Source: Paramecium tetraurelia (taxonomy: Eukaryota > Ciliophora > Oligohymenophorea > Peniculida > Parameciidae). Taken from it: DNA of 64,000 bases. Numbering within the stretch: position 1 is the stretch's first letter; each line of letters opens with the position of its first letter. The stretch is taken from positions 1 to 64,000 of the forward strand of contig NW_001799455.1 in NCBI RefSeq assembly GCF_000165425.1. The letters run 5' to 3'. This document shows, one piece after another, positions 1 to 62,240 of this stretch. The notes under the pieces are model-generated. The model did not search any database and was not told the origin of the DNA. It saw nothing but the letters and a program-made list of their open reading frames with translations. A program made the translations under genes and the position numbers.

Positions 1-1
1 C

Positions 2-3000
2 AGCATGGGCAGATCTAAACCAGTTAATTAATATTAATTAAATAATTAGTAACAATTAAAGACTTCTTAAAAGTAGAACAATTAAGATGAATAATCAATA
101 AATACTAATTTGTAATTGTAAAATCAAGAAGGAGGTTAAATATAGTAGAATATAATATAATCTTAATCAACAAATAATAATAGAGAAGTAATAAGAAAAG
201 AACCATTATTAAATAATTTATAAAAATAAGTATCAACTAGCACTAATAATTAATAACCTCTAAATTAATCAATAAATAATAAAAATGATTAACCTATATA
301 AATATCAACTAACACTAATAACGAATAACCAATTAACTAACAAATAAATAATAAGAATGTTTAACCTATATAAATATCAAGTAACACTAATAATAAATAA
401 CCACTAAACTAACCTATAAATAATAATAATGTTTAATTAAAATAGATACCAACTAAAACTAATAATGAATAACCAATAAACTAATAAATGAATAATAAAA
501 ATGTTTAATTTACATAAGCAATAACTAATACAAATACTGGTTTATTATTTGGATAACTCCCTAAATTTAATAATTTGTTATTCTAATAAGCATCCACTAG
601 CACTAATAATGAATAACCACTAAACTAACCAATAAATAATAAGAATTTATAATTTACATAAATATCAACTAATAATAATAATGAACAACCATTAAACTAA
701 TAAATGAATAATTAAAATGTTTAATTTACATAAATATCAACTAACACTAATAATGAATAACCATTAAACTAATAAATGAATATATAAAAATGTTTAATTT
801 ACATAAGCAATAACTAATACTAATACTGGTTTATTATTTGGATAACTCCCTAAATTTAATAACTTGTTATTCTAATAAGCATCCACTCGCACTAATAATG
901 AATAACCACTAAACTAACCAATAAATAATAAAAATGTTTAATTTACATAAATATCAACTAACACCAATAATGAACAACCATTAAACTAATAAATGAATAA
1001 TTAAAATGTTTAATTTACATAAATATCAACTAACACTAATAATGAATAACCATTAAACTAATAAATGAATAATTAAAATGTTTAATTTACATAAATATCA
1101 ACTAACACTAATAATGAATAACCATTAAACTAATAAATGAATAATTAAAATGTTTAATTTACATAAATATCAACTAAACACTAATAATGAACAACCATTA
1201 AACTAATAAATGAATAATAAAAATGTTTAATTTACATAAGCAATAACTAATACTAATACTGGTTTATTATTTGGATAACTCCCTAAATTTAATAACTTGT
1301 TATTCTAATAAGCATCCACTCGCACTAATAATGAATAACCACTAAACTAACCAATAAATAATAAAAATGTTTAATTTACATAAATATCAACTAACACTAA
1401 TAATGAATAACCATTAAACTAATAAATGAATAATTAAAATGTTTAATTTACATAAATATCAACTAACACTAATAATGAACAACCATTAAACTAATAAATG
1501 AATAATAAAAATGTTTAATTTACATAAATATCAACTAACACCAATAATGAACAACCATTAAACTAATAAATGAATAATTAAAATGTATAATTTACATAAA
1601 TATCAACTAACACCAATAATGAACAACCATTAAACTAATAAATGAATAATTAAAATGTTTAATTTACATAAATATCAACTAACACTAATAATGAATAACC
1701 ACTAAACTAACCAATAAATAATAAGAATTTATAATTTACATAAATATCAACTAACAATAATAATGAATAACCATTAAACTAATAAATGAATAATTAAAAT
1801 GTTTAATTTACATAAATATCAACTAACACTAATAATGAATAACCATTAAACTAATAAATGAATAATAAAAATGTTTAATTCACATAACCAATAACTAATA
1901 CTAATACTGGTTTATTATTTGGATAACTCCCTAAATTTAATAATTTGTTATTCTAATAAGCATCCACTCGCACTAATAATGAATAACCACTAAACTAACC
2001 AATAAATAATAAAAATGTTTAATTTACATAAATATCAACTAACACTAATAATGAACAACCATTAAACTAATAAATGAATAATTAAAATGTTTAATTTACA
2101 TAAATATCAACTAACACCAATAATGAATAACCACTAAACTAACCAATAAATAATAAGAATTTATAATTTACATAAATATCAACTAATACTAATAATGAAT
2201 AACCACTAAACTAACCAATAAATAATAAGAATTTATAATTTACATAAATATCAACTAACACTAATAATGAACAACCACTAAATTAATCAATAAATATTAC
2301 AAATGTTTAATTTACATCAGTATCAACTAACACTAATAATGAATAAAAACCAAGTTAATAATCTTAAGCATCAACTCATACTTAATGTTTTTAACAATAA
2401 TAGCAATCTTCCATTTATATCTATAATTGCTTTCATTAAAAAAATTCATACTAATAAAATAGTTAAAATTAAAACTAACCATTAAATCAATCAGCCTCTT
2501 TTAAAAGTCAATAAATTTAACCTTATGACAATTGCAACTAATCAAATTTATCTTTTTAATAATCTTAATAAATTCCCATTATTAATCGTCCTTAAATTTA
2601 AGTTTTACACTTAAATGAAAATAATATGTCATAACAACCAAATACAAATACTAGTTAAAAATCACGGTTATTATTTCCAATTTTTATTCCTACTTCAAAT
2701 TCAGCATACAATCAATAAGAACTTAATAATTAAGACGATTTACTATTTGATGATAATTTCTTTTTTAACCTATCTTTTTTAACGCCAATATCGCACCTTA
2801 TTAATACTAGTCGCTTTACTCATTTAAATCGATCATACAATAGTACAAAAGAATCGAATACAAAACTAACATCAACATAGTATAATTAATTAATATCTAT
2901 TGCTGAAAAACAACTTTATCAACAATGGAAGGAATATAAAAAACCCTTTAAATCGATCAATAAATTGTAATTTAGAATAATAGTAATAAATTAGAATGCA

Positions 3001-5553
3001 AAACAATAGTTCCTTGAAAATTTTGGATAACTATTATTGCAATTATCTTTTCTAAATTAGAATTATGATGTTATCTTATCTGGATAACATTAACCAGTAT
3101 TTTTGAAGCGAAAAGAAGAGGCTTTAACAATTTCTCTTCTTGATGAAATTTTACATACTTTGATTGGGAAAAGTAATAAGGAATTTAGTATTGTAAACGA
3201 GAATAGCATGAATAATAATGATTTTATTTTATTATTTACTGAATAATTATTAGAAATGTCAGCTACTTGTAAAACAGAATTATAAAATGAAGGAATCAAT
3301 ACGATAATTCAAATTTAAAATTACAATCAATTTAATACTATTAATATTAAAAATGGATAAATTATCAGTAGTTCAAATAATTTATTAGAATTTTTAAATT
3401 AAATAGATAAAAAATAGCCATTAATGAAAACATAAAGGTTATAAGGCAATCAAGAAAAGGAAGAATTAAAATAAAAAATGAATGAATATGGTTTCTAGAT
3501 AGACTCAAAAGAAGCAAATAGCTTAAAAGGACTGTTAGAGATAAATACATTTACAAAATATTCTTTATCATCAAAAGGAACCACTATAGATATAAAAGGC
3601 ATCATCAAATTTTTTTGTACTAACGGAACTGCTAGAGACATTATGAGGAGAAAAAATAGAGGGGGAAAGTCACTTTATGTTTTTTATGTAATTTTAGATT
3701 TAAGTTCAATTTAGAAGGAAACATTGTTAGAAATTGTATTACCGTTTTTATCTTAATTAATTGAACTATGTAGATAATATTAGATAATTTGTAATTTGAT
3801 GATTTTGAATAATCCGTTAATAATTATAAAGTCAAATTACGCTACTTTATGGACCGATTAGGAATATACTCTATTAATTGAAAAATTAATTGATTACCAA
3901 GATGAAGCTTCAAAAGATTATTCTGATCCATAATTATAATAAATATTTGATTAGTTTGAAAGATTTTGCCATTACAAAAAATATTTGATATTTATCAATC
4001 ACTCTTTTTATGACTATTAATTCAAGGAACTTTAATAATTGATAAATATGGCCTAATAAAAGCAAATTAAAATTATCTCTTTAGGGGCAGATATAAAGAA
4101 ATATATCAATCGTTCAATTGAGGGAATTATTTAGTATTCATTAAATCACTCAAAGGAATCATATAAAATTATAAAAAATATGTTCAGCAAAGTTTTGGAA
4201 GCAGAAACATTTAATGGGGACTTCTAGTTTTAGCAAAATAATCAATAATATCCAAGAAAATTATAACTTGAGAAGTATTGCTCAAAATAAGGTTAAGTTA
4301 ATTGTTACATGAATAAATATTTTAACTATCAAAAAGAAGGGGAATAAAATAAGGATAGGAAAATTGCTCTTATTGATCCCAAACTATTTCTTTTAATTAA
4401 GTTGATAGAATTGGAAAGATTGTTTCTTGAAATGGAATAATTAATGTAGAAACGAGGAAAATGATATAAGATTTATATATAAAACTTTATTAAAATTGTT
4501 CCAAAAAAATATAGAATTAATAGGTTGTTCATTAATACAAATCCTGTTTATGTTTACCTATCCAAAATGTATAAATTTATATTTTAAAATCCTTTCCTTA
4601 CTGCAAATTTAAATTAAAATTACTATTTTTACATATATTAGTCAAAATATCCAAAATGTAATGTTACTGGGAACAATGTGAACCATGAAATAAAAAAAAA
4701 GTGAACTTAATTCTTCTTAGATATGCTCTCAAATATTGTTCTATTAACATTAAATCCAATTACTATAAGAATTTATTCTTAGTATAATGTTCATTTAATT
4801 TAAGGTTACTAGATATAACAATTAATTTTACTATAGAATAATGGCAATCAAGATTTATCTTCAAAATAATTTTCTGCTTCATTTAGGATAGATTAACAAT
4901 CTAACATAAAATAGTTTAATAAATTATAAATACAAAGAAAATGCCTGAGAGATACTATTATTGATAATTCTTCAGGTTTAATATTCCTTCCATCTAAATG
5001 TATTTTTAACCACGACCATCACCAAAATAATTGTCCCTTTTTGTAAATAACCTCTTTTTACCATATTCCAAAGAATGTGATAAAATTTAGTCATGCAATC
5101 AAGCAATTTATTGAATTCCTATCAGATTTCTAATTATTTTTTTATTAGTTATCAATCATCTTTGTTCCTTTATCTTTATTTGATAAGAATAAAATTATTA
5201 AAATACTAAAATATATTTATTTAATTCTGAATATTCCATTAACAATAATTTAACCTCGTTTTAAAAGATATCTGAATTTATCGATCCTTTTTCATAATGC
5301 TGGCTTTCTTCATCATATACATTTAGTATATCTGTCAAGTATTTTTGTTGATGTCATGTCATCTAAAATGTAACTACTTCCTCTATAAATTTTAAGATTG
5401 AATTCACTCGTGTTCAAATAAGTTATCCAAACTTTTTTCTGTATAGAAATTGATGTTTTTCCATTTTATTCAAATAAATTAATAAAATATGGGTTGCACT
5501 ACTGCAAAAATTCACGAGCCTCTAAGTTAAAGACTTAGGGAGAAAGCAAGTGA
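2..5553 (+). pseudogene. Large Gln/Asn-rich repeat protein gene, partial at 5' end, frame broken
   Basis: From the window edge an open frame passes through the 72-bp array and continues to a TGA at 4462-4464, about 1480 codons. After the array (2346-2620) comes a Gln/Ser/Asn-rich stretch. A less biased region of about 600 residues follows (2626-4464), with a hydrophobic strand LYVFYVILDLSSI at about 3679 and YLIFINHSFYDYQ at about 3982, spaced like the first strand and a later strand of a von Willebrand A-like fold; the resemblance is weak. Frame 1 stays protein-like after the first TGA, crosses a second TGA at 4702, and remains open to 5551-5553. With two +1 shifts in the repeats and two internal TGA codons, the gene is probably decaying, or it ends at 4464. 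Its true start lies upstream of the window. The product is not recognised; the GLLFG motifs recall FG-nucleoporins, but that is only a resemblance. Confidence 0.55.
222..2345 (+). repeat. 72-bp (24-codon) tandem repeat array, coding
   Basis: About two kilobases of direct repeats with a 72-base period, about 29 units. Read in the ciliate code each unit begins NVQFTQIS and ends EQPLNQQMNNQ, so the period is exactly 24 codons. Four copies of a longer module (near 517-599, 807-889, 1238-1320 and 1888-1970) insert a further 24 codons containing TGLLFGQLPKFNNLLFQ, keeping the same register. The array is open in frame 2 up to about 783, frame 3 to about 1187, and frame 1 beyond, so two single-base insertions have occurred inside it. 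Units are 90-100 percent alike by eye, with variants (PINNK against QMNNQ ends) distributed as expected from unequal crossing-over. Repeats closer to the start (222-510) are more diverged. Confidence 0.9.
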
Positions 5554-6055: not shown

Positions 6056-7087
6056 TCATAGTTAAATAAAATTGAAGTCTTCAACTACAACTGGCTCATC
6101 TTCATCCTCCGCCTAAACGACATCTTGTACAAATTTGACTTTGATTAACTCTTTCAATTTATTACATCTTTGGATTAACTAATATTAGTTTTGGAAGATT
6201 ACCTTCTATCTAATCAAATTTGGATTGTCATTCTATGATAATTCGATCAAGTTTTTAATGCATGATTAGATGAAATTGCTTGAACTAATGGGATCAACAA
6301 AGAAATCGTTTGGCATTTGTTGTAGCTAATGGTAAAATACAGGGATGAAGTCAATAAAAAAACTAGTTTATTCTTCTATCAATCTTTCACAGGATGTAAT
6401 TAGAATTAATAGTTATTTCCATTGTTCGAATGACTCAAAATGTTCTCCCAATAAAAACTTAACGAATGCATATTAGATTTCTCCCAAAAGCAGAGAATAT
6501 TCATTTTGATATTCTGATTTCAATAATTCTTCTACTATTGTGGACTTATCAAAATTTAAGGCTGTCAATTATTATCCATGAGATTTGCTTGGGTTCTTTA
6601 ATTTAGGTATATCGGTATAATAGATTGTAGAATGCAAAGGGTTGTTGCTTCCAATGTCTTTGTCATTGTATTCTTCAACACATACATTTTTGATTGGATC
6701 CAATTTGTCTAAGACTTTTCTATTGATCAGATTCACACATTATTTCCATACTTCATACTTATCCATTGGATAAATACCCAAATACAAATCGAAGTCATGC
6801 ATTTCTAAAGTGTGTATGTATGGTGCACAATCCTTGAAAGTAAGGAATTCTTATAATTCACTATTCCATTGCTTTACCAGATATTTGTTTTCTGGTGAAA
6901 CTATGAAGAAGAATCCTTACTTGAATTGATAGCCTTCTTCCTTTAGCGAATAATGAACATAGTGGGTACCAAAGGGTATGCCTTGTACTCCTTTGAACTT
7001 CTTTCCAACTATCCATTGGGAATTATCAATTCCGAATTAGAGATTCTCAGGTGAGTCAAGTAGAAGAAGAATGCCTAATTAATTCAT
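6056..7087 (-). CDS. AAR2: AAR2 family protein (U5 snRNP assembly factor)
   Basis: Single-exon gene of 343 residues. AAR2 binds Prp8 in the cytoplasm and holds it in an immature U5 snRNP before Brr2 replaces it. Family hallmarks are clear: [15 protein letters not shown] followed by [20 protein letters not shown] at residues 8-45 (the family's GIDxxSW...GPKFKGVKMIPPGIH signature), and in the helical C-terminal half [20 protein letters not shown] and [15 protein letters not shown] (vertebrate proteins have DVLGELQFAFVCFLLGN and IPADFFVDIVS). It ends in an acidic tail (EDEDEP). The start ATG overlaps the stop of the upstream same-strand gene as ATGA. The hallmark starts only eight residues in, so the N-terminus is shorter than in animals. 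Intact, with no frame problem. Confidence 0.93.
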
Positions 7088-21725: not shown

Positions 21726-22514
21726 ATGAATAATAATGAGATGAGAGAATCTTACCTTGGTGTATTTCATATACCAAATGTTACGTTATCATAATCATAA
21801 TTAGATGATATTTTGAGACTCCTAGATAACCTCAAAAAAATTCCGCATCAATTTTTTACGAGCTTAGACATTGTAGAGAAGGGTTCTTTTCTAATGAGAA
21901 TCAAATTAAAAAAGAACAACAAAGCCAAAGCTATGATAAATTTCGTTATTATATTATAGAAAAAATAAGCGAAAGAGGAATTAGAATAGGATATTGTTGA
22001 GAATGGATTTGTTTTGAGCTTCTATGAATATAATTTTTAATCCAACACCTTGGGATCCTTTGAAAATAAGGAGGAATGGTACATATTAAAGTGTGACAAT
22101 TTTTACTACAATTTATCAGACTAATTCAAAGAGACTAACAAATAATAAACAGTTGTAGGTTGCTTAAATTGCGAGAACTAAAGACCTCGATTTTTGGAAT
22201 AATAAACAATTAACTTTTGCCAAATTTGCATTACTCGTTAATTTGATTTTAAAAATATCAATGAAATGAAGATTTAACTTGAAAATGGCATATTGATAAT
22301 CACAAGATTAGATTAAGAGAAATATTTATAATAATAGGGCCTCTAAATTTAGTGCAGGGGCTATTCCAAATCCTCTTATTTAAATTCAGAATGTAATACT
22401 AATTAATAATCAAAAAACAGTGATAATAATGATGCATATAGTGGAGAATAAGAGTACTCTTAAAATGATGCATATAGTGGAGAATAAGAGTACTCTTAAA
22501 ATGATGCATCATGA
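21726..22514 (+). CDS. Unknown protein with CxxC pairs and a C-terminal direct repeat
   Basis: A 262-residue single-exon frame. Visible features are CLNCENQ near residue 150 and FCQICITRQ near 170, giving one CxxC...CxxC pair that could bind zinc. The tail has two perfect copies of a 12-residue unit (NDAYSGEQEYSQ) encoded by an exact 36-bp tandem repeat at 22428-22499, then a fragment of a third copy and the stop. No signal peptide or membrane helix. Function unknown. It follows the multi-zinc-finger gene at 40 bases in the same orientation, and the calpain downstream also starts with zinc-finger modules, so the three could share ancestry of the zinc domain. Confidence 0.65.
22428..22499 (+). 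repeat. Perfect 36-bp tandem duplication inside a coding region
   Basis: Two identical adjacent 36-bp copies plus the first ten bases of a third. The repeat is in frame (12 codons), so the duplication lengthened the protein tail without a frame change. The absence of any difference suggests a recent event. Confidence 0.95.
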
Positions 22515-23161: not shown

Positions 23162-25763
23162 ATGATAAAGGCATCAATTAAGTGTGTCAAATGTTTATAG
23201 GAAACGAAAGAAAGTGCGTCTTATAAAGCAAAATGTGGACACTTGTATTGTATCAAGTGTATAGATCAAATTACTGCTGAAGGGGGTGCAAATTGCTCAG
23301 AGATGTCATGCTCTAATTTTCTAAACATAGCAGATCTAATGAACAGACAATTCCAAAAACTATCGAATAGCAATCAAATGGTTTTTGGGAAATAGGTTAC
23401 CATGTTTGCAGGAGATCCCAAAAAATTAGGTAAAAATTGGAAGTTATCTTATAGCATCACCATCTCAATAAAACAAAGCAACAGCTGTAAAACAGAACAA
23501 CTAAAACTTAAATACTCCACGAAATTAATAGAAAAATACTCTGCCTCGAAGATCAATTTAAGAACGTTCTCCTGTGGCAATTTAAACGAAATCCAAATCT
23601 TAAATGCAGAAAGTAACAGATCGTGTTTTGCAGCAATAAAATAGTGCCAAGATGATTAACCCAAAGCAACAATAAACCTAATAAAGATAATAAGCATAGG
23701 TAATTCCATAACAGCAAGTGTAATAACCTAAATAATAACAATAAAAATTGACACAACAAAATGTTTATATCTAACCACAAAAACAAGAGATCAAAGTGGA
23801 TATCGACAATAGAATGACGGAATCATTTTCCTATAAATGTGACTATTGTCATTCCAATAACTCAGGGTTATTTCATAATGAAATCTGTGATCATCGCTTA
23901 TGTTATGATTGCATTTAAAAATATTATGATGACTATTGTGTCTGCTTTGTCAAGGATTGCGGTTGGTAAATCAACTAGGAATAATTAAACTAATTTATGT
24001 TAACCTATGTCACCTTTTAATTGGGTGAAGTTGAAGAAGTCAAACTCAAAAGACAACAATCCTCGAATGATCAGCAAGACATCTTAATTAGCAAATTTCA
24101 ATTTGAAGAAGTCACCTTACAACACATGTAAATATCCAACATGAATGAATTCATCAAGACCTTTGACGAGCTCAAAATCAAGGAAAAAAATTACATCGAT
24201 CTCAGATTTGGACCAAATGACAAAAGTGTTGGATCCAATTACTCAGTTACCTGGTAAAGATTGAATGTGATATTCAATGGGGATTATCAGTTTTTTGCAA
24301 AAGCAAACGATGACAAAAGGTTTGGACTTGGTAAATACATTGGGCCTTAAGATATCATATAAGGTTAATTAGGAAACTGCTATTTACTGGCCTCAATTTC
24401 AGCTTTGGGGAATAGAAGACCAGATTTGTTATTAGATGTTTTTATTACTAGAGCAATCAATGAATAGGGCATTTATTGCATTAGATTGTGTATAGATGGG
24501 ATATGGAAGGCCATCTATGTGGATGATTACTTCCCAGTTTATCCAAATTTAACACCCATATTTACCAAAGCAAAGAATAATGCAATTTGGGTTATGGTTC
24601 TAGAGAAAGCATGGGCCAAATTGTTTGGCTCTTATCAAAATAGTGCTGCTGGCTCAATGCAAGAAGTACTCAGAGCATTAACTGGAGCACCAACAGAAGT
24701 TATCTGGACTCAATCTCCAGATTTCATTGCTCAACTAAGGAGATGTCTTGCCAATAAGGTTATCATGGTGGCAGCAACCCAAAGTAGTGATATCCAACCC
24801 ATTACACAAGGATTGGTTCCTAATCATGCCTATTCAGTTCTGAAGATCAGATAAATCAATCATCCAAAAAGAGGATAAGTGGAATTGTTGAAATTGAGAA
24901 ACCCTTGGGGGAAGAAAGAATGGACTGGAGATTGGGGATAAGATAGTCCATTGTGGACTCCACAATTGAGATAAGAGTTAAAATTGGATAAAGAAGATTC
25001 TGGTGTATTCTATATGGATGTAGGATCATTCATGCAATAGTTTAGAGACATTCATATTTGTCATATCAAACAAGATTATTAATATTCAGCTACTCAAATC
25101 AAGTCAAGCAAGAAAAAGGCTGTCTATTATTCATTTAAAATTACTAAGGAAGGAGACTATTACATTACTATCAATTAACGAAATCAAAGATGGGCAGGAA
25201 ACCCTAAGTATAGCAATGCTAAACTGCTTATTTGTAAAAAGGAAGAAAACCATACATACACATATATTGCTGGTAAATTAAGTTAATTTGGAGAAGTATG
25301 GTGTAAATGCACTTTAACAAAGGGTGAATATGTTGTGTTTGCAAAGGTGATTTGGGAACATCATCAAGAATTTTTCTTTGTTCTCTCATCATATGGAATT
25401 GATAAACTTGAATTCAAATAAATAAAAAAGATTCCTGAAATGCTCCCAAGTGTCTTGATCAAAAAAGGACTGGTTTAATAACCAAAACGAAGTTATGACA
25501 CTATGGGATAACCCAAAATCCAAAGTTGCTATAATCTAGATAGATTAGATGGTTGGGGTTATTACTTCATTGACAATCAATCAAATGTTAAATTAATTAG
25601 CAAAATATCCTTTCATAAATTCTATGGCCTCAAATTTTGTAAACCTCATAGAGGAGTTACACTCAACATTGAACTGGCTCCTGGCAAATAGTTTATTGCA
25701 GTTATCAAAGTGCTTTCTGGATATGAAATAGAATTTACTCAAAAGGTTCAATTTCAACAATGA
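23162..25763 (+). CDS. Zinc-finger calpain-type cysteine protease
   Basis: Two exons (intron 23430-23454, 25 nt), 858 residues. A zinc module CVKCLQETK..CGHLYCIKC..CSEMSCSNF (residues 8-65) is followed by a Gln-rich linker of about 120 residues, then a second zinc module CDYCHSNN..CDHRLCYDC..CFVKDCGW. The calpain catalytic core follows: QGQLGNCYLLASISALG with the active Cys at about 415, VPNHAYSVLKI with the active His at about 555, and LRNPWGKKEWTGDW with the active Asn. Two beta-sandwich C-terminal domains follow (AVYYSFKITKEGDYYITI and a second block), as in calpain-7/PalB-type enzymes. There is no EF-hand domain. All three catalytic residues are present, so it should be an active cytosolic protease. 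The zinc modules fused in front are a ciliate-style arrangement. Confidence 0.92.
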
Positions 25764-32591: not shown

Positions 32592-33800
32592 TCAACTATT
32601 CTGATCTTCAATAAGTAATTCTCTTAAAATTTTCTTCATCTCTTGCTTACTAATATATTTCTATCCTTATTTTTCTTCTACTTACTGTTCCGTATTAAAT
32701 TACTTCTCAGTCAAATAGTTCAGTGCTATACAAGAGAAATAACCACATGAATTGTAATCTGATTGCCGAGGAAATTCTCTTATTATTTTAATCTTAAATA
32801 TCGGAATTGTTGACATCACCTCACTGAAAATTGTTTAAAATAATAGTATGAGCCTTTCATATTTTTCTGGATTTGAATAAAGAGAATCATAAATTTCGAT
32901 TATAGATTCTTCCAAATCCAATTTAGCACAAAACCAATGAAAATTTTGGTTTACCACAAAAATTATATTCTGATAAATCTTCCAAAATTAATATTAAATT
33001 GACTCAAAATTACTAAGTTATTCATAAAATAACGTTAACCATTTTTCCTTATTAAATTCAGTGTTTATTGAGCAATTTGTTATGTAATCAGAGCAAAAAA
33101 TGTATGTTCTCCTATGTTTCTTCCTAACTTCGACTTCTGAAGTAAAATATTTTTGCTCATCAGCAAGCCTTAAATAGTTGGCATAAGAATCAACAATATT
33201 ACTAGTAAGCCACATTCCTGTTGATTTTAAAATTAGAAAATCCTTTGATCTAAAAATGGCATTGTACATAATGTCTTTGGATTAATGCTTACTTGAGAAG
33301 GGGAAAGACTTCTTGATTTCCTTTAGGTTTCCATCCTTATCATAAATTTCAATTTTATCAAAACTTATTTTCATAATAAGTTTATTAGATTCTAGTATTT
33401 CATCAAAATTTGATTATATTGACTTTTCGAATTCTTCAGGGAATTTATTCAATGATATAGAAACTAATTTTGGAAATTGAAGATCCTCTTGCTCATTCAT
33501 TTTCTAATTTTATAGTTTTTACTTTTTGTGATCATAGTGTTGAATGTCATAATTAATCTCAGGGTTCTTTATGTTTTCTCGATATTTGATTAATTTTTCT
33601 GAAATCAACTTTTGGAAATCTAATTCAGGCCTACCTTGCTATCCAGGTGGATCTAAAAATTTAATCTTTTTATTCTCTTTTATAGGATGGGATGGGTATT
33701 TACATTTTTAAGTTTCAGCATATCTATTCTATGAGGGCTCACAAGTTTTGACTCTTTATGAAGGTATTTCCTAAATAAAAATGGATTCTTTCTTATTCAT
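32592..33800 (-). CDS. Ulp1/SENP-type (C48) cysteine protease
   Basis: Single exon, 402 residues. The first 200 residues are basic and Gln/Lys-rich. The protease domain begins STGMWLTSNIVDSYANYLRL (the family's WL(N/T)D..I..Y...L) at about residue 180. It carries the full catalytic set: NQNFHWFCAKLDL (His), IEIYDSLYSN (Asp), FPRQSDYNSCGYFSC (oxyanion Gln and active Cys in DYNSCG). Such enzymes remove or mature SUMO or related ubiquitin-like proteins, usually at the nuclear envelope or in the nucleus. It reads without interruption, unlike the locus just upstream on the same strand. The start at 33800 is the first ATG of the frame; a second in-frame ATG lies about 105 codons later. Confidence 0.88.
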
Positions 33801-43259: not shown

Positions 43260-44492
43260 ATGGCCTTAAATCCCCCTATCACTTAAAATGGAGTTCCATT
43301 AAGAGTGGATCAAGAGTTCTTTATATTGTATAGGAAAGAAATGGAAGGATAATTTAAGATTCAAACTATGGGCAAGTTTAAAGCTTCAGGAAAAGTAGGT
43401 AATTGATTAAATTTAGGTTTTCATCACAACATGTAGAATGGTTTTTGTGAATGACAACTTCTAAAGAGACTCTTTTAAGTCTTTTGATATCCCTTTGGCT
43501 TATTTGAGTGCTGAGAAGTTCCGGCAACCAATACTTGGAAGTAATTTTTTAGAAGGGGATGTGGCTCCCTTATACAATCTACTACCAGGAAGAACTCATT
43601 TTAAATTACGGTTCAAAGCAGGAGGTAGGAATAATTTAACACTTTAGGATGTGAGAAGTTTCTAAGGATACTTTTTTCTGTGTTAATATAAATCAGAACG
43701 TCGCGAAGTTCTGGATAACGAGTCCCTGATCCTCGTATGATGGAAAACTTTGCAAGAACCTAGAGTTAAGCCTTAGTTGATCCTAATGATCCAAGCGTCA
43801 TCTACATACAATAACCATAGTTGCTTTAATAATCTTATGGAAACACAACTTGGAGCATTCCGTAAAATCAAACTTAGTTTTCTCCAATAGGTTAGCCCAA
43901 TAATAGGATGCCACAATAACAATACTAGTAACCACAGATGAAATAGCAGTATCAGAAGCCTCCTTAACGCTATCAATAATATTAGTAGAATCCTTAAGGA
44001 TATCAATATTTTTAACAGGTACCGCAGCAGAATTTCTAGAATAACCCTTAAATTGGTAAAGCTGTTAGTTATCATCCTGGATATTAATAATAGACTCAAC
44101 CAAATTACACTCAACTTGGAATGCAATAACCATAATAGTATAATAATCAACCGCCCAATCCATATTATCAATAAAGTCCCCCATAGAATCAAGCAACCAG
44201 CCCTTATGTCTAACCAAATCAATAACAACAACAATAGTAACCCTAATAAACATAAGAGATTAAATAACCATAATAAGTAAATGAGGATCAAGTCCCTTCC
44301 ATATAATAAAATCAGAATTAATCAAATCAGTATTTAGAGTAAAATAATAACCAATAAGAACCTATTTAAAATGAAGAAATATTACCTTAAGATTAACCAT
44401 AAGTTGATGAGGTTAGGAACCAACCGAATACAGCCTTTTACTTTGGATTTTGGGGTCCTTAGTTGCAATCAAGTTAAAATGCAATATTGTGA
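43260..44492 (+). CDS. WBP2-like GRAM-domain protein with Pro/Gln-rich tail
   Basis: Three exons (introns 43395-43416 and 43625-43647), 395 residues. The first 135 residues form a GRAM/PH-like domain with the WBP2 signatures VFITTCRMVFVND, SFDIPLAYLSAEKFRQPILG, NFLEGDVAPLY and THFKLRFKAGGCEKFL. The rest is dominated by Gln, Pro, Asn and Tyr, many Gln encoded by TAA/TAG. Animal WBP2 has PPxY motifs that bind WW domains; here the tail has tyrosine-proline clusters such as PPNPYY but no clear PPxY. Likely a membrane- or transcription-linked adaptor. Intact. Confidence 0.85.
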
Positions 44493-46108: not shown

Positions 46109-47922
46109 TCAAAATTTCCAATTAGAATCTGTAGCCATAGCCCAAATGAATTTATTTCTTAAAGTTTTTGAAAACACTCTTTCTATAGGCACATCATGTA
46201 CTTTACAAAATGCCACACTAATTCTAGGATCATTGTAATTGGTTTTGGAAGTTCCCAAAGCTATCTCCTTATTTTCTTCTTTCTTTTCCAACCCTTTCAA
46301 CTCCTTCTAATATTTCTCCTGAGTCTTCTAAATCGTTTATTTGATCTTATCATGTTGTCCTGGGAACTTCTTGATAAAGATACTGTTCTTCTTCTGAGAT
46401 CCCTCCTCTAATTAAACTTCCTCCTCATATTCATTAGGATTCTTCTTCTTATAATGCTATTCCAATTCTTGGATGTATGTTTTCATGCATTCTAATTTCG
46501 TATTGATTTTCTTTTTAGTTAATTCAAATTATTTAGATATAGTTTTTTGATGATTACATAAAATAGCTACCTGTTTATTGGCATTATCATAGAAATCAAC
46601 CTAGAGATACATTTAAAATATACCTTTTATTAAACGGAGTGGCCATCTAATTTGCCACCTAAATCAAGTTGTTGTTGGAGTGTAAAACTTGCATTATAAG
46701 TTCTAAAGACCTTGGCTGTTAATCCTTCCATTTACTTTTTCAAGAAATCATTCAAATCATCAACACTTATATCACTAAACAAGTTGTCTTCTGGTTGTTT
46801 TCCTTTGATGAACAGTTTGAGATTCTTCCAAATCTAATGTGCTAATTTAACCTCATTATTGTATCTCATGGAGTCCTTACCCAAGAAATCAAAGGCCACT
46901 ACATCATCCTCCTTCAATTTGATATGTTCTACTCTTAAACTGCAACAACCGACTGTGTCTGCTTCATCCTCATCCTTTTCATTTCCAACTCTCAATGCCA
47001 ATTTATCTATCAAATAGGTTGCTGTTCCTAATTATCTTTCTTTAATTGAATCTGATTGTAACTTCTTAGTGTAATTCTCTCTAATTTGATCAATTTAATT
47101 CTTCAATCTCCTTGCCTTCTCATACTTCCTCTTATCATTCATCTACTTAAATCTTGAAGTGGCAGCAAATTGGACATATTTATGATTGTCTTTTCTGATA
47201 CTGGAATCCACATAAGAAAACAGCCAAGTAACATCATTTCTATGCACTATCTTGCCCCAAGAATGACCAGGCAATTTACATTATGGCACTGGAGCCTATG
47301 TACTTAGATTCACTGTTAATTCCTCTGGAAATATCCTGGCTTTTAGCAATCCTGCCTTTGGATGTTCTCCACGTCCCTTGAATAAAGTGGGCTATTCCAG
47401 TGTGTAATTGCCTACTCTTTCCAAACAACCATCCACCAAAGCATACCCATAAAACAATTCCCTTTGATCTCTTTCTAATTTCTCCTGCTTTTTTTATTCA
47501 TCAGATTTATTCAATCTCAATAATCTTTGCTATTCCAAATATTCCTTTATCTTTGTGAAATCAGCCTTATCCAATTAAAACCCTTCAAATTTTGTCTGCA
47601 TAAGCGATTCAAAATTCTTCCTGTAAATTTCCTTATTTTCATATGGAGATCCAATAGATTATGCCCAATATGTGCAAAGTTCTTCCTACTCCTCTGTGAG
47701 GGTTATCAACTTCCCATTGTAAATCAAACCCACATTGTGTCTCTTATAAAATGGAGGAAACAAAACTCCATGATGTTCCAAATACCTCCATTCTTGACCC
47801 TATTGTTCTTCCTCCTCAGATTCTTCAGGATTGGCTTCTTCCCACCAATTGTGCGATCTTGCTTGAAATCCTCCCAAACGAATCTCTTTGTACTCATCTA
47901 TTTTAATTTTCTTGTCGCCCAT
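46109..47922 (-). CDS. TOP1: DNA topoisomerase I (type IB)
   Basis: Two exons (intron 46601-46623), 596 residues. The enzyme nicks one strand via a 3'-phosphotyrosine to relax supercoils in the nucleus. Core motifs: [11 protein letters not shown] and [11 protein letters not shown] near the N-terminus (the long basic N-terminal extension of animals is missing); [19 protein letters not shown] (first catalytic Arg); FLGKDSMRY (Lys); [18 protein letters not shown] (second Arg); VAILCNHQK (His); and the C-terminal [18 protein letters not shown] with the active Tyr, then [13 protein letters not shown]. All five catalytic residues are present. The intron separates core from linker. It is divergent from DNAAF1. 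Confidence 0.97.
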
Positions 47923-50594: not shown

Positions 50595-53500
50595 ATGCTT
50601 TTTTAAATTTTTACTTTCTTATTTTCATAGTTTGTGCTTTTGAACTCACAATGGACAACCTATACTTCGATGTTATATTATGATTCGTAATTTACTCAAA
50701 ATACAGGGGATTTGGCATGGTATAATTCCGGAGGATTTTTATTGCCTTCAAGCTAAACAACAGCAAATTTTATCAGTTGTTCAACCCCTTCCACAAGTTA
50801 TATTACTTTAAATAATATATATCCATCCGCTGAAACATATAATGTTTATAGCTTTTAAGGTGAAAATTGGATATCTATGGACTTATATTTTCAGAGTACA
50901 TGGTCCTCTTAAAAAGTTGAAATTACACTTGGATCATTTTCTTTTATATATACCTATACTTCCCCGACAACTTATCCATTAACTGGAGGATTTTGTGATA
51001 ACTCTTCTTATGAAGTTAAGACTCTTAATTTTACATATGGTGTTACAGGAACGACAAGCCAAGAAAAATTAAAAATTAAATCCTATAATACAAATTCAGG
51101 ACAAGTCTCATTTAAAAACGTGTACATCTCAAATATAATATGCTATCCATCATGTAGACTGTGCGCAGGCCCAAATTATAATTAATGTACAAGTTGCTAT
51201 TATGGATCAACGACAAATAGCATTTGCCCACCTTGTTAATAAAATTAGTTCTATTGGAAGCACTCGGGATGCTATAACATTTGTAAATTCGATAATCCAT
51301 TATTGAAAAATGGGTTTTGTTAAGAATATCCAAGTATTTTTTTATAAATATATCTTAGTTTAAGTAATTGAATAAGGTTATTATGATAGCAATTCGATAC
51401 AAGCGTTGAGATGGTAGATTATATATGACCCGCAACATTTAGAGACAAATTATACTAAAAATGCCTATGCATATGGAGTATTCAGGTTTAATTCTGGTGT
51501 CAATAGATATATGAATAATTTGCCTAACTATTCTTATTCGACATATTTGGTTGGAGTAGTAATTTCAATCATGACTTATAATGATATTCCACTTAATTGT
51601 GGAATATAGTTTAAGATTAATAATACTTATTATGGATCTATTTATAGGAATGCATCTGGGATTCAAACCCATTAAGTCAAAATATCTCAAATTACTAACT
51701 ATGGATCATACCTTTCGTATGCCTAGAGTTAAATGTATTAAATTATTGCATATGTTGACATTCCTAAATATTCATTTTTATTTTCAGTTGTAGGAAATTA
51801 CACGTAAATATTAATTAATATAACTTAGAGTTGACACAGCAGGATGGGGAATTTCTGGAATCTAAGTTACTTAGGGATATTGTTCTAATTATTGCTAATT
51901 GTGTGAAGTATCATTTAAATGTAAAATTTGTCAAAGTGGATGCTTTTTTTATCGAGATGGTAGTTGTACATGTTCTTGTTCAGCTCCATACTAAAAACCA
52001 TAGGACTCTTATTGTTATGATTACGATGACGAAACACCTTGTATTACATAAATAATAATTAGACTCTTCATATTTGATTAAGGAATATATAAGTTCTGCT
52101 GGTGACCCTGAATAATATGCAAAGTATACTTTAATTTCACAAAGTGGAACAAACTTTTTGAAAGGATCAAATATCTATTTTTCATTTTATAATTAACTTA
52201 GACTCTTTGGAGGTCCTTTAGTATGGGCATAAGCTAAATTCTAAAGGGTTCATACTATATCATCTCCACATCATAGTCTCACAATAGCATTTTATATTTT
52301 ATATGGACCATCTTTCTCTGAAGATGGACAATTTATATATACAATTGAGAATAATGCACCAGTTACTAAATCAACTTAATTTTTTTTTTCAACTTATTTT
52401 GATTCAAAATATGACAAAGTATATGAAAAAATCAATCATAATACAAATACATTAACAATCACATGGGAATGCTTTGGACCAAATAATGAACCAATTCAGG
52501 CATTTTGTGGAGTCTATAATTATTATATTGCCGTTCATAATTGCTAACCTTATTGTTTAGAATGTGAGGATTAATCTAAATGTACTTAATGGAACAGCAC
52601 TTATGATTCTAATATCGTTAAATTTTCTTAAGCAGAATGTTTGATTAACCAATATCATGATAAAGAAACTGTAAGATGTTTAGAATGTCCATAATCCTGT
52701 TTAACATGTACATCTAAATTAGATTGTTAAACATGCAAATCAACTTATACCTAATCTAAATTAGGATGTACTTGCAAAATGAATCAATATGAAGAATCAA
52801 ATCAGTGTTTTGATTGTCCAATTGAATGTAATTAATGTTTAACTTCTACTTAATGTATAGAATGTTTAATTTCTAATAATAGAAAATTATCAAATGGGTA
52901 ATGCAATTGTATTGACGGGTATTATCATATAGTATCTAATCCTTAATGTAAGCTATGCCATTAATTTTGTAAAACTTGTACTGGACCAACTGCATCTGAG
53001 TGTTTAACTTGCAATAATATTGTTAATATTGAATATGTTGGATCCACATGTCGATGTCCAGCAGGATATTCTTATAAAGATGCAACAAAAACTTGTGATT
53101 CTTGTCATCCATAATGCTAAACATGCTTTAGAACAAAAATTGATGGTTGTCTAACATGCGATCCTGCTTCAAATAGAATATTAAAAGGATTAAATTGTGT
53201 TTGTAAACCTGGTTATTATGAAAATAATACTAATTGCACAAGTATATTTAATAATCATATTATAGGTTGCCCAACTATAGAAACTCCATCTCTTAGTTAA
53301 TGTTATAAAATTTGCATAAATAATTAATTGATATGGCATACTGCCACTTGTAGTTCTTGCGATACTGGGTTTTAATTAGTATCTGGATAATGTCAACCTA
53401 TTTGTGGAGATTTATAAAAGAAAGGATATGAATAATGTGAAGATAATAATGCAATCCTTAATGATTTATGCTTTAATTGCTAATTCTAATGTCCAGCTCA

Positions 53501-56500
53501 TTGTTTAACTTGTGATTAATCAATAACCTTACCTTGTCCTGATATTTGCGGAGATGAAATTATAACAGGAATCGAAGAATGTGAAGATGGAAATAATATT
53601 TAATATGATGGATGTTTTAATTGTAAATATTAATGTTAACCTTAATGTACAAATTGCATAAAAGGATAATGTTTTGAGTGTTCTACTGCTGGTTGGCGAG
53701 TAGATACTACGGTTACACCTTGGTAATGTAACCATATTTGTGGAGATACGATAACAGTTGGAAGTGAATAATGTGATGATGGAAACTCTTCTGATACAGA
53801 TGGTTGCAAAAATTGTATGTATTTCTGTCGACTTGGTTGTTCTTCTTGTGATTATTCAACCAACAAATGCTTAAGTTGTTCTACACCTGGGTTTGCTCCT
53901 TATTCTTACTATTGTTAAAATATATGCGGAGATGGCATAGTCGCAATAGATCCTACTGGGTTTTTTACAGAGTAATGCGATGATGGCAATACTACTAATT
54001 ATGATGGTTGCAGTAGTTCTTGTGAATTTTAGTGTTAAAATTCATCTATTTGCACTAATTGCGTAAGTAGTAGATGTGAAACATGTGCTGTTGGATATGT
54101 TCTCTCGAGTCAAAAAATATGCATACCAATTTGTGGGGATTCCTTAATTGTAGCATTTGAATAATGTGAGAAATCGTTTATACTACCATACAAAGGTTGC
54201 TAAAATTGCTTAGCAAAATGTCAAAATTCTTGCCTCACTTGTGATAATTCTGGGCTTGGCTGTCTAGCATGTAAAACTGGTTACAACAGAATTGATTATT
54301 TATGTTATTCAAAATGTGGGGATGGAATAATAACATAAGATGAAGAATGTGATGATGATAATTTAGTAATTGGGGATGGATGTCATTTCTGTAAATATAG
54401 TTGCTAGGATTCATGTCTTTTTTGTCTTAAAGGAATCTGTTAAGATTGCTAAGAAGGTTATCAATTAGTAAAATCTAAATGCTACTCTATATGTGGAAGT
54501 GGCTTTTAATAATATAATAAACAATGTGATGTAGTAACTTCATTGCAAACTTATCAAAATTGCTAATCTTGTAAATTTACTTGTGATTCAAATTGCTTAT
54601 CATGTTAATTTGGTATTTGTTAGCAATGCAAAGATGGATATGAATTAGTGTCGAATAAATGGCTGTGTGTTAAATCTATATAATATAATTCTATTGTTGT
54701 TGAATACTGTAAAATCTAAATTGGGGATAGTTGTGATTAGTGTGAAGATTATGCCTACTTTGAAAAAGGTGAGTAAAAGTGCAGGTTAAAAGCAGCACCA
54801 TTAAGTTTTTGCCAGTATTAACTTAGATTATCTCCAGATTTATATTGTAGTTATTGTTTTGATTACTGTGAGTCTTGTAATGAAAATAATTGTCTAATTT
54901 GTTAAAAAGGCTATTATTTGGATGAAAACTATTCCTGTGTTTCTATTTGTGGAGATGGCATAATAGTTTAGGAGGAAGAATGCGATTATGGAAGTGAATA
55001 CTAAATAGATACTTGTTTAAATTGTAGCTTCTAATGTCCTCAATATTGTATGTCTTGTGTTTACGGTGTTTGTTATCATTGCTTAGTAGGATTTTATTTG
55101 AATAATTTGAGTAATTAATGTACTTCTGTTTGTGGTGATAAAATATTGGCGATTGATGAAGCTTGTGATTATGACAATTATGAAGGATATGTTGATTGTG
55201 CTTAGTGTTAATTTAAATGTCAAGATGAGTGTTTGGATTGTTAACTGGGAAAATGTATGTTATGTGAACTTCCTTTAATACTATCAAAAAGTAAGTGTGA
55301 AGAAATAAAATAATGTGAAGGTTTAGTAGGATTGTATTATGATAATGATAGTAATGATTGTCTACCATAATGTGGAGATGAAATTGTGGCAGGTAATGAA
55401 GATTGTGAAGATTTTAATAGTCTTCCTGGTGATGGATGTTACGAATGCAAATTTTAATGCTCAAAAGATTGTCAGGTGTGTTAAGATAGAGTATGCATTT
55501 AATGCATAACAGATTATTATTTAAATAATTATCAATGCTTGTTAGATAAAGCAAATGATAATCTTAATTCTAGCATTATCGAAGAACCTAAAGACAACGA
55601 TCCTGATCCTAACATAATCATAGAAACTTAAAATAATGGTACAAGTACTGATAGTACAAAATTAGAATAGAGTTTATGGAAAGATAATAAGATATGCCGA
55701 GGAGATGAATGCGTATATTCTAAAAAAGCCATCATGTAACTGACTTACATTAAATAATTATATGCTCTATAATATGTTGATATTACATTTGACTAAGAAG
55801 TAAAAATTCAGGATAATATAATAAAAGATCAAATGCTATTTAATATTAGCATCAAAGATTTAGATTCCAAGTATTATAATATTACTATTAATCCAATTTA
55901 ATATATTTCATTCGATCTCTAATATGCTTAGTATTAGGTTTAGATTGAGATATTATAACAACTTTCAATCAATCCTGTTCTCTTAATTGAGTTGAATCAA
56001 AAATTTGTTAACTCAAACAATTAAACAATTCTTAATCCTAATGAGTCAATCGTTCTATAACTACCGAAAATAATGTCTGAATCATCAAAATAGATATCTA
56101 ATTTAGCTTCATCATCGAACAAAGCCTTTATGATTGGAGCAATAACCATATGTGGAGTTTCTTTAATTTCTAGTTAAAGTTCCTTTGTTATTGAAACACT
56201 GAATCTTCTGTAATATTAATCATTCTTACGATTTATTAATGTAGATTATCCTGAAAACCTCTAAATATATTTTTAAGCTTAAGAGATGCTATCAATAACA
56301 TCATATATATAATATTTTCAAGCTGATGACTATTTAAACATAATAACAAGAAAAGAAAAATAGGTTAATCTAAGTGGAAAATTTCAATAATATAATGTAG
56401 AGGCTGATCTTTTTACTAATTTTTTACCTCAATTTATTTAAATTTTAGCATTACTACCACTACTGTATTTTGCCAGGAGTCTTTTTCTTTTATTCTTTAA

Positions 56501-57332
56501 ATTAGGCTAGTATATGAAATGTCTTGAATACCAAACAACCTATGAATCAAAGATTTTAATGGCAATCATTAATTTATTACTTAATTTCTAAAATCATGTC
56601 AATTAATTAACCAAATTAAGATATCTTTAAAATTATAATAAAATACTACAACCTATTTATGTTAACTCATGGGATTTGATATTTAAAGTTATTTTATAAC
56701 TTAATTATAATCGGGTTGACAATTTGAGAAGTATTTTAACTACTATTTTTGCAACTTCCATATTTTTGATGTGTATTTGCTTGTTATTGAAGTCGTTTAG
56801 TATATGTAGCAAACTTAAGGATTAAAATACTAAAGTAAATCAGTAAGTAAAATTCATAGCTTTAGATATTTCCAGAACTATGTTTTTCCACATCGTATTG
56901 ATAAAATTCTAAAGTTAATAAATTTTGCAATGGCTATTAATTTCTTTTAGCAATTTAAGCTAATTTTATTTAATTTACTAATATAAAATATGTACCAAAT
57001 TCGATAGGATTATACTATTAACAATTGAAGGAGTTTTAACAGTATTTAGTTTAAGCTTATTTGTATATTTTGATTTTGGTTTGTTTTCTATCTCGTATGA
57101 AAATTAGGTGACTTTAGGCTTTATTTAAATGAATTTTTTGATAATGTGCCTTGGAATAGTATTTGCAAAGCAACTTTATCCTAAAGTAAAGTTAATTTTG
57201 AGCATGATCTGTAAACATGGAGAAGTATAAGCTGAAATAAAGGCTGATATAAATGCTGATGTATAAGCTGAAGTCAATGCTGAAATCAAAGCTAAAGTAA
57301 AGGCTGTTACAAGTAATAAGGTACCTTCTTGA
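50595..57332 (+). CDS. Giant Cys-rich surface protein with DUF4215-type repeats and C-terminal membrane helices
   Basis: Four exons (introns 51334-51358, 51804-51828, 52041-52062), 2221 residues. It begins with a signal-peptide-like segment (MLFQIFTFLFSQFVLL). About 500 residues of N-terminal lectin- or sandwich-like sequence come next. Growth-factor-receptor/furin-like Cys pairs (CxxCxxxC) fill about 650-950. Then at least eight copies of the Cys-rich repeat CGDGI...EECDDGN..DGC..C appear (for example near 53730, 53935, 54310, 54950). After about 1690 the Cys content drops, and several hydrophobic helices follow, including LALLPLLYFARSLFLLFF. It ends in a cytosolic tail of short ADINAD/AEVNAE-like units. 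The order fits a large cell-surface protein of the kind ciliates have in many copies. Ligand unknown. Confidence 0.88.
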
Positions 57333-59887: not shown

Positions 59888-62240
59888 ATGACTAGTACAT
59901 GCGAACACATCAACGAATAACACATCACTTGGTCAGTCAAGGGATAAATGATATACAAGAATTAATGCACTCGTTGTTTTGTGGAAGCAAAGAGTGAAAA
60001 TGGCATATAAGTGTGTTTGAAATGTTTTAATGGAGGTTGCATTGAAATACACAGTCCGCAACACAGTTATTAACATAATCATTACATTGTTCTGAACATT
60101 AGATTATATGAGATTGAATAGCAAAAATAGAGTGTGGATGAAATTACTTAATAAGTTATAGAAGATATTCCATAACTGGACTTTGAAACAAGTGTGATAT
60201 GTTTGAAATGTCAGAAAATGTTGAATTCTCCTTAGTTGGATGGATTAATTTAATCAATTAAATAAACTAATGCTACTTCATTTGGATTAATAATAGATGA
60301 ATACACAATTTAACCATGTCAACATACCTTAACTATATAATAGAGACAGTTAGTTGTAAAAAATCTGTAGAAGTGCAGAAGATGTCGTTTATCTACTAAT
60401 TTATGGCTATGTTTACAGTGTGGACATGTTGGTTGTGGTAGAAAGATTTTCGATGGATCAGGAGGAAATAATCATGCAGTAGATCATTTTGTAGAACTTC
60501 AACATCATTTGGTTGTCAAATTGGGAACTATTACCTCAGATGGTTAAGCCGATGTATTTTGCTATAAATGTGATGATGCTGTGGTAGATAAACTTCTTAA
60601 AGAACATCTTGCTACTTATGGGATCGAAATAGAAAAATAAGTGAAAACTGAAAAAACCATGGCTGAATTAACTTAGGACAAAATTTTAGTATTGCAATTG
60701 AGCAAATTGATAGAAGAGGGGCAAGTATTGGATCCTATTTTTGGACCGGGATTTACAGGAATTGATAATATTGGAAATACATGTTATATGAATTCAGTGA
60801 TCTAAGTAATTTTTAGTATACATGAATTTAAATAACTATACTCTCTAGAACATTAATTCAATTGCACTAGTTTACCATACAACTGTGTATTATGTCAAAT
60901 ATGTAAGGTTAATCATGGTCTTAATAGTGGTGAATTTTCAATAAAGAAAGAATCGAAGAATGTACAAGGAACATTTAGAAATTTTTATTAGGATGGAATT
61001 AAACCATATGATTTCAAGCTGCTAGTAGCCTAAGGAAATTCAAACTTCCTCTTTAATCATTAATAAGATGCATAGGAATATTGGCAATTATTAAATTCAT
61101 TCTTTCAGAAAACTGAAAAACAATTTAAGTTACCATAATTATCTTCTATCTTCTCATATGATTAGACTACTATTTTAAAATGTGAGAATTGCGGGGGACA
61201 TAAAGTTAATGTAGTTAAAAATTAAGAGTTTAAAGTCCCTGTTGAATAACCTACTTAAGATTAAATTGATCTTTATCGTAAACAAGAGAAATAGAAATAT
61301 GAGGAGAGAATTAAAACAATGAAACCAGAGGATATTAAACCATTCTCATTAAAAGATATACCTGAGTATGTCACAACATTCGAAAGGTGTTTGCAACTAG
61401 TGAAAGAAGGAGAACGTGTAGACATAGTCTGTCCTTCATGTTAATCCCTGTAATCATTTATCAAATAAGAATACTTTAAGACTTTCCCTAAATATCTCTT
61501 TGTACCTGTTAACAGATTTGTCTAAGAGAATTGGGTTCCTAAGAAATTGAATGCATCAATAAAGATCAAGGAGATCTATGACTTTAGTGACTTCAAAGAA
61601 CCTGTGCTCTAAGACAAAGATGCAATAAAAGAGTAAACTGAATAGGAATACACAGAAGATACCTTACAAATTTTGATGGGAATGGGATTTGGTGAGAATA
61701 GATGCAAACGAGCACTCATCAAATTTAAGAATGATATTGAAGCTGCTATGATTTTTATTATGAAATCACTAGATGACCCAACTCAAGATCAACCATTGAA
61801 ATAGAAAGAACAAATAAATGAAAAATTCATTGAATAAATAGTTATAATGGGATTCAGTCATGACTAAGCCAGATTCGCTTTATCTAAGACAGTATTATAT
61901 TGTATCTAGATAAAAGGATAATGATTTGAAAAGAGCAATGGATTATATATTTAATCACGACTTAGAAGCTGAGATGAATCAGACACAAGCGAAGTAGTAA
62001 TAACAGAAGTAGGATCAATTTGATAATCAAACATCAAAATACTAATTGTTTGGTATCATCTTTCGTTTATATCCCTTAGCGTGTATAGTCCATTTAGGAA
62101 AATCTGTTCAAAGTGGACATTATGTGTCTTACATTAAAAAGAATGGAGAATGGATTCTGTACAATGATTCTAAGGTTGCCAAGATAGCTGATCCTGCTTT
62201 AAACAAGGGTTATATGTATATCTTCAAGAGACTAGATTGA
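59888..62240 (+). CDS. USP5: Ubiquitin carboxyl-terminal hydrolase 5/13 (isopeptidase T)
   Basis: Two exons (intron 61892-61916), 775 residues. It disassembles unanchored polyubiquitin. Domains in order: a degenerate variant zinc-finger region (CTRCFVE..CLKCFNGGC); the ZnF-UBP that binds the free ubiquitin C-terminus (CRRCRLSTNLWLCLQCGHVG with GGNNHAVDHF); the catalytic Cys box GIDNIGNTCYMNSVIQ at about 295-310; two UBA domains (QILMGMGFGENRCKRALI, QIVIMGFSHDQARFAL) inserted within the catalytic domain; and the His box VQSGHYVSYIKK with WILYNDSKV near the end. Domain order and insertion of UBAs match USP5 exactly. The intron interrupts the second UBA. All catalytic residues are present. Confidence 0.96.

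Follow-up and report, generated by a model that had tools for sequence, protein, structure and literature searches.

The closest described counterpart of the gene examined here is midasin (Rea1/Mdn1), a very large chain that carries six AAA modules, a long linker, a low-complexity region and a C-terminal MIDAS domain. In the excerpts of PMC6286127 and PMC6920918 available for this work, the D/E-rich region of Rea1 is described as structurally unresolved and flexible, with the suggestion that remodelling of the linker stretches it. The metal motif of MIDAS domains follows the consensus DxSxS ... (S/T)DG (PMC6624252, in excerpt). Judged by titles and abstract openings, none of the papers found on midasin in Paramecium or Tetrahymena (PMC7203096 among them) deals with a protein of the present kind. 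A second search, for glutamine-rich prion-like proteins of ciliates, found no paper. Low-complexity sequence with short, FG-containing hydrophobic spots is typical of FG nucleoporins of the Nup98 type, and the Paramecium array described below is also of low complexity with such spots. Tandem units inside genes are described for the Tetrahymena 90-bp-exon LRR genes, for which unequal crossing-over has been proposed (PMC6564038, in excerpt). The Paramecium locus shares with them intragenic tandem units of a length that is a multiple of three. In that account, however, the Tetrahymena units are exons and belong to a large LRR family, whereas the Paramecium units are Q/N-rich, intron-free between units and present in two related genes.

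The sequence analysed, hereafter the window, is a stretch of 64,000 nucleotides (C183:1-64000) whose first base is base 1 of its contig and lies inside a gene. An earlier note on these letters had proposed that the repeats near the start form an in-frame protein domain. We propose that the array, which is repetitive and probably disordered, acts as a tether in the tail of a giant AAA protein of midasin-like type; only the C-terminal part of that protein falls within the window. We give this reading a probability of about two in three.

The array and its units

Tandem Repeats Finder reported a period of 72 with a score of 2507 and 29.4 copies at 226-2346, so the array is real. Set in register from position 230, it resolves into 29 units, and the first part of the gene is laid out as follows.

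2..229, forward strand: Q/N-rich lead-in in frame 2, the reading frame being already open at the contig start
230..2319, forward strand: tandem array of 29 units, 25 of the ISTNTNNEQPLNQQMNNKNVQFTQ type and four GLLFG modules
518..589, forward strand: GLLFG module 1 (AITNTNTGLLFGQLPKFNNLLFQQ)
807..878, forward strand: GLLFG module 2
1240..1311, forward strand: GLLFG module 3
1888..1959, forward strand: GLLFG module 4
778..792, forward strand: +1 insertion that takes the reading from frame 2 into frame 3, a probable assembly error
1171..1189, forward strand: +1 insertion that takes the reading from frame 3 into frame 1, a probable assembly error
2320..2814, forward strand: incomplete unit, then Q/N/S-rich sequence without repeats

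The start at 222 given in the earlier note is therefore a few bases early, although the array itself is as described. The strict 24-codon period claimed there holds for 27 of the 29 units, including all four GLLFG modules (72 nt each), and fails in two units of 73 nt, both of the ISTNTNNEQPLNQQMNNKNVQFTQ type. The predicted length of roughly 700 residues agrees with 29 x 24 = 696, and the Gln/Asn/Thr-rich character was borne out by the residue content of the 27 in-frame units (N 27%, Q 19%, T 12%). For the window array, Q+N amounts to 46%, S+T to 16% and D+E to 3.6%. A Pfam match of the protein encoded by 5-781 to DUF2529 fell below the cut-off and was taken as chance. Elsewhere in the window, a perfect 36-bp (12-codon) tandem repeat of 2.3 copies at 22428-22509 codes NDAYSGEQEYSQ at the C-terminal end of an ORF and is a young coding repeat. 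A 251-residue ORF at 43737-44492 contains 50 TAA/TAG codons and is rich in Q, P and N, with no strict repeat.

The gene around the array

Downstream of the array, the following features lead to the end of the reading frame.

2815..3552, forward strand: conserved stretch after the array and before the MIDAS-like core, from alignment with the paralogue on C185
3553..4317, forward strand: C-terminal domain, MIDAS/VWA-like by position and a weak profile match
3697..3711, forward strand: DLSSI where MIDAS domains have DxSxS, with Ile for the last Ser (weak alignment)
3997..4005, forward strand: NHS, probably the counterpart of (S/T)DG in MIDAS domains (uncertain alignment)
4462..4464, forward strand: TGA stop, which closes the reading frame

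In the 69 Mb assembly that was searched, the protein encoded after the array (2344-4461) has one relative, at C185:427234-428931 (E 1.1e-157, 48% identical). The order of that gene is AAA ring, linker, Q/N array and C-terminal domain. Its ring consists of six AAA_5 stretches (Pfam E 2.5e-72), and its array is built of a 36-bp (12-codon) unit in 34.9 copies coding SSNTNNGQQTSQ, with no GLLFG and with 1.2% aromatic residues among the 342 residues counted. The C185 linker is interrupted by an assembly gap. At about 433,470-433,830 of C185, Ns stand beside G-rich junk with about 70 bases repeated on both sides, which is probably a false gap between overlapping contigs. When the C185 ring half (2996 of 3021 residues) was used as query, the search gave one close relative, C99:37821-46718, at 61% identity, together with four weak matches on C190. 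Contig C99 is 47,800 bp long, carries six AAA_5 stretches (E 3.7e-74) and has its reading frame still open at 47,798.

We consider C99 most likely to be the missing first half of the window gene. The join is drawn from position, orientation and the paralogue and not from sequence common to the two pieces. One gene split at an assembly gap would explain both a C99 frame without an end and a window gene without a beginning, and the window gene thus probably appears as two unconnected half genes. If the linkers are equal in length, the piece missing between C99 and the window can be estimated from the paralogue at about 2.5 kb. By simple Nei-Gojobori counts with dS near saturation, dN/dS against C185 was 0.23 for C99 (3163 codons aligned, dS 1.01) and 0.36 for the C-terminal part of the window gene (652 codons, dS 1.10). 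The inputs for the first comparison were the first 3200 of 3353 codons of C99 and 3298 codons of C185, including poor sequence beside the gap. The similar dS values are as expected if C99 and the window belong to one gene, and the ratios argue for clear purifying constraint on the gene outside the array.

Comparison of ORFs of at least 70 codons between 39.5 kb of C185 and the window plus 20 kb of C99 did not establish a shared gene order around the copies; the sole match outside the gene was at window 32613-33266 (31% over 219 residues, E 2e-20). Because this gene-order match is insufficient, the C185 copy is called a paralogue only and not a whole-genome duplicate. Other genes in the window include an AAR2 gene at 6056-7087 on the reverse strand (Pfam E 2.4e-39), a calpain-family protease at 23604-25763 (Pfam E 4.8e-68), a 1791-residue ORF with ten DUF4215 stretches at 51957-57332 (E 3e-69) and a ubiquitin hydrolase with UBP zinc fingers and a UBA domain at 59888-61924. 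In the genome, CCCCAA/CCCAAA repeats occur at the starts of several contigs; only contig-start places were used, since the reversed control of the telomere search was itself telomere-like. Together with the size of 69 Mb and long reading frames that need TAA/TAG as Gln, these repeats suggest a macronuclear assembly of Paramecium type.

Among solved structures, the best relatives of the ring are midasins (C99 E 6.1e-74, C185 E 1.1e-74), the next being NorQ/CbbQ proteins at 7.8e-7 or worse. AAA_5 matches were also recorded on other contigs, in at least 21 places with 23 of 120 candidates scored (for example C25:54553-54963, C166:748906-749322 and C230:204215-204541). A canonical midasin stands separately, on C190. 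The open frame at C190:167167-179238, of 4024 codons from stop to stop, matches midasin over the ring and MIDAS domain at E 1.5e-241 and the MIDAS structure 6qt8 at 3.7e-40, and by these matches it is an ordinary midasin. Between its linker and its MIDAS domain lies a 482-residue stretch with 34.6% D+E, in the position of the D/E-rich region of midasin; in the window gene the array occupies the corresponding position.

The window gene resembles midasin in its long linker, low-complexity region and C-terminal domain at the MIDAS place and, provided that C99 is its first half, also in having six AAA modules in one very large chain. The Walker A motif is standard in four of the six AAA modules of the midasin-like ring. 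The differences are several. When the modules were compared with one midasin sequence, that of C190, all six matched M3 or M4 best and only A3 and A4 matched their own position, so that modules of the C99/C185-type ring are not colinear with those of midasin. The linker beyond the AAA ring, within C99:37740-47798 and C185:433670-443563, shows beta-type hydrophobic periodicity, whereas that of midasin is alpha-helical; the beta/alpha ratio, a rough measure, was 1.76, 1.40 and 1.72 in three pieces and 0.69 in C190. Identity of the linker between C99 and C185 is 47% over 857 residues, below that of the ring. A Pfam scan of the C185 linker piece alone gave no match, and BLASTP at E 0.1 detected no internal repeats in the linker. 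The tether is Q/N/T-rich with little D+E (3.6% in the window array, as against 34.6% in C190), and the array has in common with the midasin D/E tether only its place and its low complexity.

The C-terminal domain is most conserved in a block at about 3553-3645. In place of DxSxS and (S/T)DG, the window has DLSSI and NHS, and the C185 counterpart of DLSSI is DLSQI; the metal motif therefore reads as degenerate in both genes, on a weak alignment. Comparison by hhalign with four midasin sequences gave a weak match (E 0.05) that aligned at the stretch immediately before DxSxS; two of 100 column shuffles did equally well, the better of the two reaching E 0.0007. The E value was 0.72 in global mode and 0.35 with the reversed profile, and against a single midasin sequence it was 0.093, with nine of 100 shuffles as good. 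No significant BLASTP match linked the domain to the C-terminus of the C190 midasin, a search of the PDB at E 10 with a profile built from the C-terminal pair was likewise empty, and Pfam gave nothing above the cut-off over 2815-3552. Pfam matches of the C-terminal part to Sterile, DUF7718, TOR1L1_C and Ribosomal_L33 were below the cut-off and were taken as chance. An AlphaFold model of the domain from a single sequence had a mean pLDDT of 37.8 and was not used for a fold search. On the basis of the non-colinear modules, the beta-type linker, the lost MIDAS motif and the weak MIDAS match, the window gene is filed as a divergent midasin-like protein rather than placed in midasin proper, and the array would be a tether by position.

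Frame shifts, unit turnover and other readings

Read with TAA and TAG as Gln, the sequence is open in frame 2 to about 782, in frame 3 to about 1175 and in frame 1 to the TGA at 4462-4464. The earlier note had found no stop, which is correct within each of these three segments but does not hold for one continuous frame, as two +1 insertions intervene. Near 782 the extra base appears as gaatatataaaaatg compared with gaataataaaaatg in sister units, and near 1175 as ctaaacact compared with ctaacact. In the assembly as it stands, a TGA at 901 closes frame 2, and 1150-4464 is the longest ORF with an ATG start that covers array sequence. Paramecium introns have the form GTA...TAG and are about 20-34 nt long; introns were rejected as the cause of the shifts because a single extra base does not match this form.

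The strongest rival to the tether reading, although an unlikely one, is that the insertions are real and the gene is broken, with translation stopping soon after the first of them and the array a minisatellite drifting in a decaying gene. The net shift of the two 73-nt units is indeed uncompensated, and changes within units are near neutral expectation, as set out below. However, the C-terminal domain lies past both shifts and has a dN/dS of 0.36, albeit averaged over a long time, and the paralogue's array likewise has one +1 (GGG for GG in sister units). Shifts also cluster in the arrays, with three in the 3,347 bp of both arrays compared with none in 36,783 bp of other coding sequence from the same genes (Fisher P 0.0006), the latter stretches having been picked as open frames, which biases the comparison in favour of this result. 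If this genome is the 13x Sanger assembly of P. tetraurelia, spurious insertions are the error to be expected, since 10,339 insertions of 1-2 nt were taken out during its correction, compared with 929 deletions that were filled (PMC3464196, in excerpt). On that condition, spurious assembly insertions are the likeliest cause of both shifts.

Changes inside the units were counted in the 23 in-frame standard units, leaving out the two 73-nt units and the four GLLFG modules. The 40 distinct changes from the consensus fall 12/12/16 on the three codon positions (third position P = 0.21), close to the equal substitution that the earlier note had regarded as telling against a coding repeat. Synonymous changes number 13 of 40 where 10.4 are expected under the same base-change spectrum (P = 0.135), and pooled pN/pS over distinct units is 0.45 (bootstrap over codons 0.24-0.78), a value uncorrected for that spectrum. 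The case for codon-level constraint inside the units is weak. At codon 9 the same 23 units have TAA in 16 and CAA in seven, an alternation that is silent only if TAA encodes Gln, as in the ciliate code.

The units of the two genes look related, as the window unit and the C185 unit consensus agree at 27 of 36 bases in the best register and only three of 2000 codon shuffles did as well; a homologue carrying a related unit, for which the earlier note had looked to related Paramecium species, is thus at hand in the paralogue. On this likeness, the repeat was probably present before the duplication, and later remodelling gave a 24-codon unit in the window and a 12-codon unit in C185. The note's central claim of an in-frame protein repeat is supported by the ciliate-code reading, the turnover in whole codons and the different array at the same place in the paralogue.

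Slightly less probable than a broken gene is an FG-type or prion-like domain in which the hydrophobic GLLFG spots would be stickers that hold together a permeability barrier or a condensate. The Q+N content, the regularly spaced VQFT and the four GLLFG modules, which we take to resemble GLFG nucleoporin motifs, are in keeping with such a domain. FG nucleoporins, however, have many FG repeats, whereas GLLFG occurs here four times in about 700 residues (in just four of 29 units), and the host protein seems to resemble midasin. The absence of GLLFG from the paralogue's array and the low aromatic content there indicate that stickers are not kept in the family. For these reasons the pore-lining role suggested in the earlier note is not supported.

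A non-coding satellite or selfish minisatellite open by chance would suit the AT-rich (18.9% GC in window 1-2000), repetitive sequence but is very improbable, given that TGA is absent from the coding frame of all three segments and occurs 2, 3 and 8 times in one of the other frames and 5, 4 and 14 times in the other, that among the matches listed in two genome searches the unit was seen at this locus only (an exact 51-base unit pattern in at least eight places and the protein of 5-781 with at least six matches, all inside the array), and that the array runs into a conserved domain and has a coding array at the same place in the paralogue.

A proposed tether in a midasin-like protein

The tether reading draws on an array whose segments, read piece by piece, stay open and lead into the frame of a C-terminal domain that is under purifying selection, and on a paralogue with the same order and its own Q/N-rich array. 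The full gene would consist of an N-terminal region, six AAA modules and most of the linker on C99, a gap of the estimated size, and then the array and C-terminal domain in the window. By analogy with the flexible D/E-rich region of Rea1/midasin, the array may serve as a leash by which the C-terminal domain reaches, or is pulled by, the ring and linker. This working analogy may fail, given the degenerate MIDAS motif and a linker unlike that of midasin. The length, flexibility and low charge of such a tether would matter more than its exact sequence, and unequal exchange would replace its units in steps of a multiple of 3 nt.

As a coding Q/N-rich minisatellite, the repeat itself belongs to a known type. 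The unusual part is its host, a divergent six-AAA giant beside an ordinary midasin, in which the tether is fast-changing and the ring and end domain are conserved. Paramecium may thus possess, beside the ribosomal midasin, a second giant midasin-like motor with a six-AAA ring (four standard Walker A motifs), a linker of beta-structure, a metal-free MIDAS-like end domain and a fast-changing Q/N-rich leash between conserved ring and end domain, a tentative proposal that we rate at somewhat less than even odds. If true, such a motor would amount to a natural experiment on the requirements of a force-transmitting tether.

DNA that looks like a satellite is thus likely to be a functional piece of a protein motor, and giant genes can be missed because of contig ends and of frame shifts in arrays of this kind. 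The comparison also suggests that the tether of a midasin-like motor may be replaceable by quite different low-complexity sequence. With two paralogues and an ordinary midasin in one genome, it would be possible to test which of charge, length and sequence such a tether requires.
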